Positions 61,357 to 64,000 of a stretch of DNA of 64,000 bases are shown piece by piece. The notes beneath the pieces are model-generated. The model ran no database searches. It saw only the letters and a program-made list of their open reading frames with translations, and was not told where the DNA came from. Numbering within the stretch: the stretch's first letter is position 1; each line of letters begins with the position of its first letter. The DNA lies in assembly GCA_002937505.1 (NCBI GenBank), contig PTJY01000005.1, positions 124,001 to 188,000 of the forward strand, in the 5' to 3' direction. This DNA is from Alphaproteobacteria bacterium MarineAlpha12_Bin1. GTDB lineage: Bacteria > Pseudomonadota > Alphaproteobacteria > UBA6615. The position numbers and the translations under genes are program-made.

Positions 61357-62406
61357 TTATTTTAAAAAGATAAAGGTACTGTCAGGGTCAACCCCAAGAT
61401 TTATTTTTTGACCGTGCTCCAATGCAAATCGGCTTGGGTGCCTTGCTAACAAGTGTGTGTGTGGACTGGGCCAGTCTCCGATTCCTACCTTAACCAAATT
61501 AGAGGTTCCTGTATAACGAACGTCGCAAACATGTACTTCAATTTCAGACTGTGTGTCAATTTTGCTAGGGTTAATTCTTAGTCCATCTTGGCGGATCAAA
61601 ACATCAACACGAGAACCATTAGGGAAATTTTTGTTGGAAAACGAACCAATCTCTGTTGTTATCATATCACCAATAACGGACCCTTCAATCCGGCTAATGT
61701 CTCCAAAAAATTCTGCTGAGAAACTATTTATAGGATTAGTATACAGAGTATTCGGGCTTCCTTTTTGAATAACTCTCCCATTTTGCATTAAAACAATTTT
61801 ATCGGCAATCAGCATGGCTTCTTCAGGGTCATGAGTGACTATGATTGAAGCAATCTCATTCTCCTTTAATATCTGAATCGTCTCTTCCCTGATTTGTTGA
61901 CGTAAAGAGACGTCCAATCCAGAAAAAGGTTCATCTAGAAGAAGCAATCGTGGCTCAGGAGCCCTGGCCCTCGCAAGAGCTACTCTTTGTTGTTCTCCGC
62001 CAGATAGCATGTGGGGATATTTCTTTGCCTGTTCCGATAACCCTATTTGTTGCAGTAGCTCTTCTGTCCTATTCTTAGCAGCTGTCTTCGAAAGTTTTGA
62101 TAAACCATAAGAAATATTTTCCGCAACAGTTAAGTGAGGAAACAGAGCAAAGTCCTGGAACAGGAACCCGATATCTCTTTCATATGGAGGTGTGACTGAA
62201 TTTCTATTTGACACAGTTTTGCCATTTAATTGCACAAATCCACTGTCAGGGGTTTCGAGGCCAGCTATAGCCCTTAATGTAGATGTTTTTCCGCAACCAG
62301 ATGGTCCTAGCAAACACAGCAATTCGCCTTCTTTGAGGTCAAAGGTTACGTCTTCTAGTATTTTTTTCTTTCCTAGGCTTAGGTTTAAATTCTCTAGTCT
62401 AAGCAT
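61357..62406 (-). CDS. fbpC: ABC transporter ATP-binding protein, FbpC/Fe3+-type
   Basis: This 349-residue ATPase of the Fe3+/spermidine/putrescine importer type has Walker A GPSGCGKT at 34-41, the Q-loop in FLFQDFALFPHLTVAEN, signature LSGGEQQRVALARA at 134-147, Walker B LLLLDEPFSGLD, and a C-terminal TOBE domain (about 240-349). FbpC proteins energise periplasmic-ferric-ion import with FbpA and FbpB, neither of which is adjacent. The iron call is supported by the Fur-box region upstream, shared with the DUF4856 gene. A polyamine or thiamine importer is less likely. Confidence 0.82.
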   Translation of the reverse strand: MLRLENLNLSLGKKKILEDVTFDLKEGELLCLLGPSGCGKTSTLRAIAGLETPDSGFVQLNGKTVSNRNSVTPPYERDIGFLFQDFALFPHLTVAENISYGLSKLSKTAAKNRTEELLQQIGLSEQAKKYPHMLSGGEQQRVALARARAPEPRLLLLDEPFSGLDVSLRQQIREETIQILKENEIASIIVTHDPEEAMLIADKIVLMQNGRVIQKGSPNTLYTNPINSFSAEFFGDISRIEGSVIGDMITTEIGSFSNKNFPNGSRVDVLIRQDGLRINPSKIDTQSEIEVHVCDVRYTGTSNLVKVGIGDWPSPHTHLLARHPSRFALEHGQKINLGVDPDSTFIFLK

Positions 62407-62484: not shown

Positions 62485-62600
62485 TTAATACATCATCTGT
62501 ATGAAATTGACAATCATTCTCATTGATAATTATTCTTATTATTATTGACATTAATAATCATTCTCATTATTAATGAGACTAATAATCATTCTCATTTAAT
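62485..62600. promoter_or_regulatory. Fur-box-like array with divergent promoters for fbpC and the DUF4856 gene
   Basis: The 13-base element AATCATTCTCATT occurs exactly three times (62512-62524, 62556-62568, 62584-62596), and a degenerate copy lies between the first two. It resembles the Fur consensus of A/T hexamers. Plus-strand promoter TTGACA (62545-62550) and TATTAA (62568-62573) are 17 bases apart, with the second element in the spacer. A second TTGACA (62507-62512) also exists. On the minus strand TTGTCA (62508-62513) and TATTAA (62485-62490), also 17 apart, would drive fbpC. Iron repression is inferred. The rest of the 298-base gap shows a small inverted repeat only. Confidence 0.75.
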
Positions 62601-62704: not shown

Positions 62705-64000
62705 ATGTGTCTAAGTAAGTTAAGTTTGGCAAACCTATTGTCTGTAGGATTATTAGCTATAGCATCCTTGATGTTAAGTATTTCTGCTCAGGCTGGTGAA
62801 AAGGTTTATGGTAAATTTCCGGTAACTTTAAAAGGTTATTCAGGGTCTAAAACTAATTCTGTGTCGTACACTGGTCAAATAGCCCGGCACGTTCTCCACG
62901 ACTCTTTAAAAAAGCTTGCCGCGAAAGGAAATGGCAAACCAAATCCGAAACTTAAATCCCTGATGATGTCTTATTACTCTGGTAAGGATGCAGGAAGAGC
63001 AATTATCGCTCCTAAAACCAAGGGTTCATTTGTGGTCAAACAGACTTTGGTTGACCAGATAAGTAAAAATAAAAACTTGTCTGGTAAAACTTATAAGGGA
63101 ACTATCTCAGGTATGCCTAACAACATGACAGGACCAGAGCTCGTGACATTTTGGATTGATAAAGCTTCATCAGCAAATAAAGGAGTTGATTCGAGAAATG
63201 GTTACAACTATCCACAGTTAATCTCTAAGTTCATTATGGGGTCAGTGTTTTACAATCAGGCTGTAGATAATTATCTAGATGAAAAACTATCTGCAACCAA
63301 GAAGCCCAATAACAAGCCCTATAAAAAAGGTGCGGCTTATACAGGCAAAGAACATAGTTGGGATGAAGCATTTGGGTATTATGGGGTTCCTGCCCACGGG
63401 TTATCTTTTTCAGGAAAGCAATTATATTTGATTGCAAAACAAAAGCCTGAGGGATTTTCGATTGCTGACTTTAATGGTGATGGAAAAATCGATTTGTATA
63501 AGGAAATGATGTTTGCCCCTGCATATTATGCAGCGAGCTATGACAAGTCGAACAAAACAAGTTACGGCATGAATATTTCAAATGCATTTCTGGATGGCCG
63601 AAGACTTATTACTTCTGCTAACGGTGAAATACTGAGTGATTCACAGCGCTCACAATTAAGAAAATATGCCGCTATAATTGAAAAAAATTGGCAGATGACT
63701 CTAGCTGAATCTGTTTTTAAGTATGCTGGTTCTGTTTATAAAGACCTCAAAAAAATCAATGCTTCTATGGCTGATGAGAAAGATAAGACAAAGAAGGCTG
63801 AAAAAGCATATATCAAGCATTGGGGAGAGCTTAAAGGCTTCAGTCTGTCTCTACAGACTGGCCGGACCAAGCTTGGCGGTGACACGGCAGTAAGGCTCAA
63901 TCGTCTAATTGGATTTGGGCCAGTAATGCCTAATTCTAGCCAGGTTGTAGATATTGATAGCAATGGTAATTACGTTAAAGATCAATCATCAGGTATTGAG
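62705..64000 (+). CDS. exported DUF4856 (imelysin-associated) protein, 3' end outside window
   Basis: The frame is open from the ATG at 62705 (AAAGG upstream) to the right edge, 432 codons without a stop. A signal peptide is clear (hydrophobic core ANLLSVGLLAIASLMLSISA, cleavage after about residue 30, AQA). The DUF4856 features are VSYTGQIARHVLHDSL near residue 60, HSWDEAFGYYG, and a DFNGDGKID EF-hand-like loop near residue 263. The family is found with imelysin-type iron-regulated proteins and outer-membrane receptors. It is divergent from fbpC over a Fur-like region, so an iron-uptake or sensing role at the envelope is likely. Its biochemical function is not known. Confidence 0.85.
   Translation, partial: MCLSKLSLANLLSVGLLAIASLMLSISAQAGEKVYGKFPVTLKGYSGSKTNSVSYTGQIARHVLHDSLKKLAAKGNGKPNPKLKSLMMSYYSGKDAGRAIIAPKTKGSFVVKQTLVDQISKNKNLSGKTYKGTISGMPNNMTGPELVTFWIDKASSANKGVDSRNGYNYPQLISKFIMGSVFYNQAVDNYLDEKLSATKKPNNKPYKKGAAYTGKEHSWDEAFGYYGVPAHGLSFSGKQLYLIAKQKPEGFSIADFNGDGKIDLYKEMMFAPAYYAASYDKSNKTSYGMNISNAFLDGRRLITSANGEILSDSQRSQLRKYAAIIEKNWQMTLAESVFKYAGSVYKDLKKINASMADEKDKTKKAEKAYIKHWGELKGFSLSLQTGRTKLGGDTAVRLNRLIGFGPVMPNSSQVVDIDSNGNYVKDQSSGIE

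Follow-up and report, generated by a model that had tools for sequence, protein, structure and literature searches.

The classical Fur box consists of two overlapping 7-1-7 repeats (PMC11353095). The Fur protein of Magnetospirillum gryphiswaldense has been crystallised on the feoAB1 operator and on the Pseudomonas aeruginosa Fur box; Lys15, Tyr56 and Arg57 mediate its recognition of DNA, and the Y56A, R57A and K15A substitutions weakened or abolished binding (PMC4506495). In vivo, the same protein is a repressor of iron transporter genes (PMC3251581).

We analysed the intergenic region between fbpC and a DUF4856 gene in the window, i.e., the whole 64,000-base stretch of DNA under study. This region is very probably a Fur operator array that overlies the divergent promoter serving a ferric-iron ABC transporter. 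A sequence-only reading had proposed that a Fur-type operator overlies a divergent promoter for iron uptake, and this proposal was supported: the boxes occur beyond chance, Fur is encoded in the genome, and the boxes are conserved in relatives.

Repeats and boxes in the intergenic region

The intergenic region is 298 bases long and AT-rich (26% GC). The 13-mer AATCATTCTCATT noticed in the earlier reading is present in three exact copies on the plus strand (62512-62524, 62556-62568 and 62584-62596), and no further exact copy was found in the whole genome (2,343,358 bases searched). Among 20,000 sequences simulated from a first-order Markov model of the region, 0.065% contained some 13-mer three times; therefore, the repeats are real and not a product of chance in sequence of the same dinucleotide make-up. 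A degenerate fourth copy, AATTATTCTTATT, lies at 62528 with two mismatches, inside the 44-base gap, and the steps between copies are 16, 28 and 28 when it is counted. The exact 13-mers each comprise the 3' portion of a 15-base 7-1-7 Fur box together with its flank.

Boxes were sought by scoring 15-mers over the 12 specified bases of TGANAATNATTNTCA. Six 15-mers in the intergenic region matched at least 10 of the 12 bases, whereas 0.16 were expected and none of 5,000 simulations reached six. The best site in the array for the TGATAATnATTATCA-type 7-1-7 inverted repeat matched 12/12 specified bases, and TAATAATCATTCTCA is the box sequence at both 62552 and 62580. With up to one mismatch allowed, TGATAATNATTNTCATT has eight placements genome-wide, four of them within the array. 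Boxes shifted by 6 bases start at 62502, 62546 and 62574, and the steps between boxes in the array are 6, 16, 22 and 28 bases (Table 1). The earlier model of three repeats was therefore replaced by one continuous array, because a fourth box (box 2 in Table 1) and the overlapping, 6-base-shifted boxes join the repeats. That model had also derived unequal occupancy from gaps of 44 and 28 bases; this argument was rejected because the overlooked fourth box fills the 44-base gap.

The full 19-base E. coli Fur consensus at up to three mismatches had no match in the window, because the array is made of 7-1-7 boxes of a variant type; we therefore scanned with the shorter pattern. A BLASTN comparison of the intergenic region with plasmids returned chance matches only.

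Table 1. Genes, candidate promoters and predicted Fur boxes around the intergenic region (window coordinates unless a locus is named).
Feature	Position	Strand	Description
fbpC	61357..62406	-	ABC transporter ATP-binding protein, 349 aa; PF00005
Putative fbpC promoter	62485..62513	-	TTGTCA (62513-62508), 17 bases, TATTAA (62490-62485)
Putative extended Fur operator	62502..62594		93 bases; overlapping 7-1-7 boxes; scan and simulation
Box starts in the array	62502, 62508, 62524, 62536, 62546, 62552, 62574, 62580		9-12/12 against TGANAATNATTNTCA
Box 1, TGACAATCATTCTCA	62508..62522	+	12/12; includes the greater part of the first 13-mer and overlaps the fbpC -35 on the minus strand
Box 2, TGATAATTATTCTTA	62524..62538	+	11/12; the degenerate fourth copy
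Putative DUF4856-hydroxylase-fbpA-fbpB operon promoter	62545..62573	+	TTGACA (62545-62550), 17 bases, TATTAA (62568-62573)
Box group 3	62546..62566	+	62546-62560 and 62552-62566, 7-1-7, overlapping with a 6-base shift
Box group 4	62574..62594	+	62574-62588 and 62580-62594, 7-1-7, overlapping with a 6-base shift
DUF4856 gene	62705..64000, continuing beyond the window to L004 position 2141	+	478 aa; PF16148, 2.5e-12
Fatty-acid-hydroxylase/sterol-desaturase-family gene	L004:2218-3231		between DUF4856 and fbpA

Similar sites were also sought in the rest of the genome. The sole full match to AATGANAATNATTNTCATT outside the array is AATGAGAATCATTATCATT at C1:90286-90312 (L018:1495-1521); the perfect box at C1:90290 lies upstream of the genes for a 191-aa protein without a Pfam match and a redoxin, with a glutamate-synthase-like gene running divergently. 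Overlapping Fur-like sites are present at C5:404639-404663 (L124:2140-2164), upstream of a porin-like gene that adjoins a PstS-like gene. A match with at most one mismatch at C6:360011 falls within a coding frame and is probably due to chance. No strong box was found upstream of the only TonB receptor found. At up to two mismatches, the 15-mer pattern had 77 matches genome-wide and the reversed-pattern control had 85; therefore, weak genome-wide matches are uninformative.

Flanking genes and candidate promoters

The region had been described as flanked by iron-import genes, and this description was borne out, with fbpC on one side and fbpA-fbpB behind the DUF4856 gene on the other. FbpC matches Phn/Pot/Fbp-type ATPase models, none above its equivalog cut-off, and its specificity for iron is presumed from fbpA and fbpB across the intergenic region. 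The plus-strand gene order is DUF4856, FA_hydroxylase, fbpA and fbpB, the DUF4856 gene being first. The best PDB matches of FbpA were ferric- or iron-binding proteins (1q35, E=7e-83; 2pt1, 3e-79). The 521-aa permease had no Pfam match and resembled Phn/Mod/Cys permease models only weakly; we therefore called it fbpB by context. Because fbpC and fbpA-fbpB flank it, we consider that the two halves of one ferric-iron ABC transporter are both driven from this region. Together, the ATPase, the binding protein and the permease make up a complete ferric-iron importer whose genes are divided between the two sides of a divergent promoter.

As first noted, TTGACA occurs twice on the plus strand (62507-62512 and 62545-62550), and a 17-spaced TATTAA occurs on each strand. 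Both promoters and the exact transcription starts are predictions from such elements. In an alignment with the nearest relative (L044), both hexamers and the spacing of TTGACA-17-TATTAA at 62545-62573 are kept; the fbpC promoter keeps its -10 and has a degenerate -35 and a spacer of 18. TTGACA at 62507 reads ATGAAA in this relative and is not conserved. The promoter scan requires the sixth base of the -10 to be T, and the plus-strand promoter at 62545-62573 was therefore unlisted. The array overlaps the candidate -35/-10 elements, and the candidate promoters are weak consensus matches only. The box at 62552-62566 sits within the 17-base spacer of the plus-strand promoter, and box group 4 lies over the site where transcription of the DUF4856 operon is predicted to start.

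The DUF4856 protein has a signal-peptide-like start and DxNxDG calcium-loop-like motifs (window 62705-64000, L004:705-2141). Its AlphaFold2 model was confident (pLDDT 88.9, pTM 0.89) and mostly helical. Against the PDB, the model had no match at E up to 0.001 (best E 0.36), and none of the 50 best matches listed had a probability above 0.41. An imelysin-type iron-regulated protein was considered and rejected, no imelysin being among these 50 best matches. The hydroxylase-like protein weakly matches the ornithine-lipid hydroxylase OlsE and carries the histidine boxes HAALH, HKIHH and HQIHH. An open-access literature search found no paper mentioning DUF4856.

We tentatively suggest, with some doubt, that DUF4856 (probably secreted) and the hydroxylase are an unrecognised component of the machinery with which marine alphaproteobacteria acquire ferric iron, controlled by Fur together with FbpABC. 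For example, DUF4856 could be a periplasmic or surface iron-capture factor, with membrane-lipid modification beside it. Iron often limits growth in the open ocean. DUF4856 and a di-iron-hydroxylase-like enzyme head a ferric-iron transporter operon under putative Fur control that is found in many open-ocean bacteria. The value of the Fur operator is guilt by association, as it ties a family without known function to iron uptake, and DUF4856 is the part of the locus most deserving experiment.

Regulators in the genome and boxes in relatives

The sequence-only reading depended on a Fur homologue, and one is encoded at C5:421450-421806 (129.5 bits to PF01475). It shares 97 of 142 residues (68%) with M. 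gryphiswaldense Fur (PDB 4RAY) and keeps Lys15, Tyr56 and Arg57 as well as the metal ligands of that protein. The genome holds three Fur-family proteins, namely this Fur (C5:421450), an Irr (C5:444439), whose gene adjoins fabA/fabB-like genes, and a Zur-like protein (C3:12881), whose gene adjoins znuB/znuC-like genes. Some alphaproteobacterial Fur-family members can respond to manganese; therefore, iron is here the presumed metal at the array. A sulphur-rich centre in Fur has been said to be unique to magnetotactic bacteria (PMC4506495). In the present Fur (L001:1468-1908), Cys9 and Met16 of this centre are present, but position 14 is Leu.

Other iron regulators of alphaproteobacteria might be thought to bind these sites. 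RirA, the Rrf2-type iron-sulphur repressor of Rhizobiales, binds the IRO box (TGA-N9-TCA), and four matches to this pattern lie in the array (62502, 62508, 62546 and 62574); perfect Fur boxes also fit the pattern. However, RirA was not found in the genome: the two Rrf2 proteins score 44 and 55 bits, and the RirA cut-off is 193. One of them is best matched by IscR (181.6 bits), its gene adjoining cysteine-desulphurase-like genes, and the other is without the three cysteines. In addition, the conserved AATNATT core is Fur-like. Thus, it is very unlikely that the sites are IRO boxes for RirA. Irr, a haem-responsive Fur-family member, binds ICE boxes (consensus TTTAGAANNNTTCTAAA, palindrome TTTAGAAnnnTTCTAAA) and is encoded here, with 195 bits against an IrrA cut-off of 150. 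However, the best sites have 4/14 mismatches to the consensus TTTAGAANNNTTCTAAA and are the Fur boxes themselves, and a role of the sites as ICE boxes has slightly less probability still. The findings suggest that Fur, rather than RirA or Irr, controls iron import in the marine Rhodospirillaceae-like group.

We searched 84,980 genomes for relatives of DUF4856 and obtained 80 loci, the majority in marine Rhodospirillaceae-like and other alphaproteobacterial MAGs. Of the 77 sequences examined upstream of DUF4856, 52 had a best box of 10/12 or better. Among the upstream regions of at least 150 bases, 52/76 (68%) had such a box compared with 4.0% of shuffles; boxes of 12/12 were present in 20 upstream regions, and no shuffle reached 12/12. 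About one third of the related loci had no box of at least 10/12. At the 10/12 level, box pairs in the related loci were spaced by 6 (22 pairs), 16 (4), 22 (10) and 28 bases (9), which gives 45 pairs where about 0.05 were expected, the pairs not all being independent events because some loci are closely related.

In the nearest relative, the DUF4856 protein is 96% identical and all main boxes are retained at identical spacing, though the 13-mers differ. The repeats had been expected to be conserved upstream of orthologues; this was so for the Fur boxes but not for the exact 13-mers. Nucleotide identity with this relative was 85% inside the array and 83% outside, and the case for selection therefore lies in the box pattern and not in raw conservation. 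The view that AT-rich DNA was recently duplicated here in tandem, without a regulatory role, would suit the 28-base spacing of the copies at 62556 and 62584 and the three identical 13-mers exclusive to this genome, but is very unlikely because relatives hold the 6/16/22/28 spacings with differing sequences upstream of the same iron operon, and many of their boxes are perfect palindromes.

The hydroxylase gene was next to DUF4856 in 72/74 loci, fbpA was close downstream in 58/66, and fbpB was present in 43/59. A divergent fbpC was found in 12 of the 70 loci with enough flank. Several divergent, more distant loci had two box clusters, one near each gene, the distance being ~70-125 bases on the fbpC side and ~30-150 bases on the DUF4856 side. 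Therefore, the single array in our genome may be two operators close together, i.e., adjoining operators instead of a single cassette. Repression of both sides by one operator would fit the layout in the host genome and in the nearest relative, and we hold this claim to be uncertain.

Proposed repression and comparison with known systems

We propose that the Fur array would act on both promoters; binding, iron dependence and repression are here predicted from the DNA. Given enough iron, dimers of Fe(II)-Fur would fill the overlapping 7-1-7 boxes from 62502 to 62594. The bound Fur would cover the fbpC -35 (62508-62513) as well as the spacer, -10 and start region of the DUF4856-hydroxylase-fbpA-fbpB promoter (62545-62580), and RNA polymerase would thereby be kept off both promoters. 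Under iron scarcity, Fur would leave, and the two halves of the transporter would be made together.

Judged by its boxes, the array is a strong Fur operator of an ordinary kind, to which Fur would bind in response to iron. It shares with the E. coli and P. aeruginosa Fur box (GATAATGATAATCATTATC) and with extended arrays the 7-1-7 palindromes, the overlap with a 6-base shift and a position over -35/-10 elements, which here are candidates (PMC11353095, PMC4506495); however, four predicted box groups, a 22/28-base ladder and a divergent promoter pair are present here. The M. gryphiswaldense Fur/feoAB1 system resembles ours in its repressor, which is 68% identical with the DNA-contact residues kept, whereas the target here is a ferric ABC transporter and several boxes stand in place of one. 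The SAR11 Fe3+ ABC transporters likewise represent a marine alphaproteobacterial FutA/FbpA-type importer behind 7-1-7 Fur boxes (PMC4771312). In contrast to these, the first genes of the operon here are DUF4856 and one for a fatty-acid-hydroxylase-like protein, and fbpC lies divergently.
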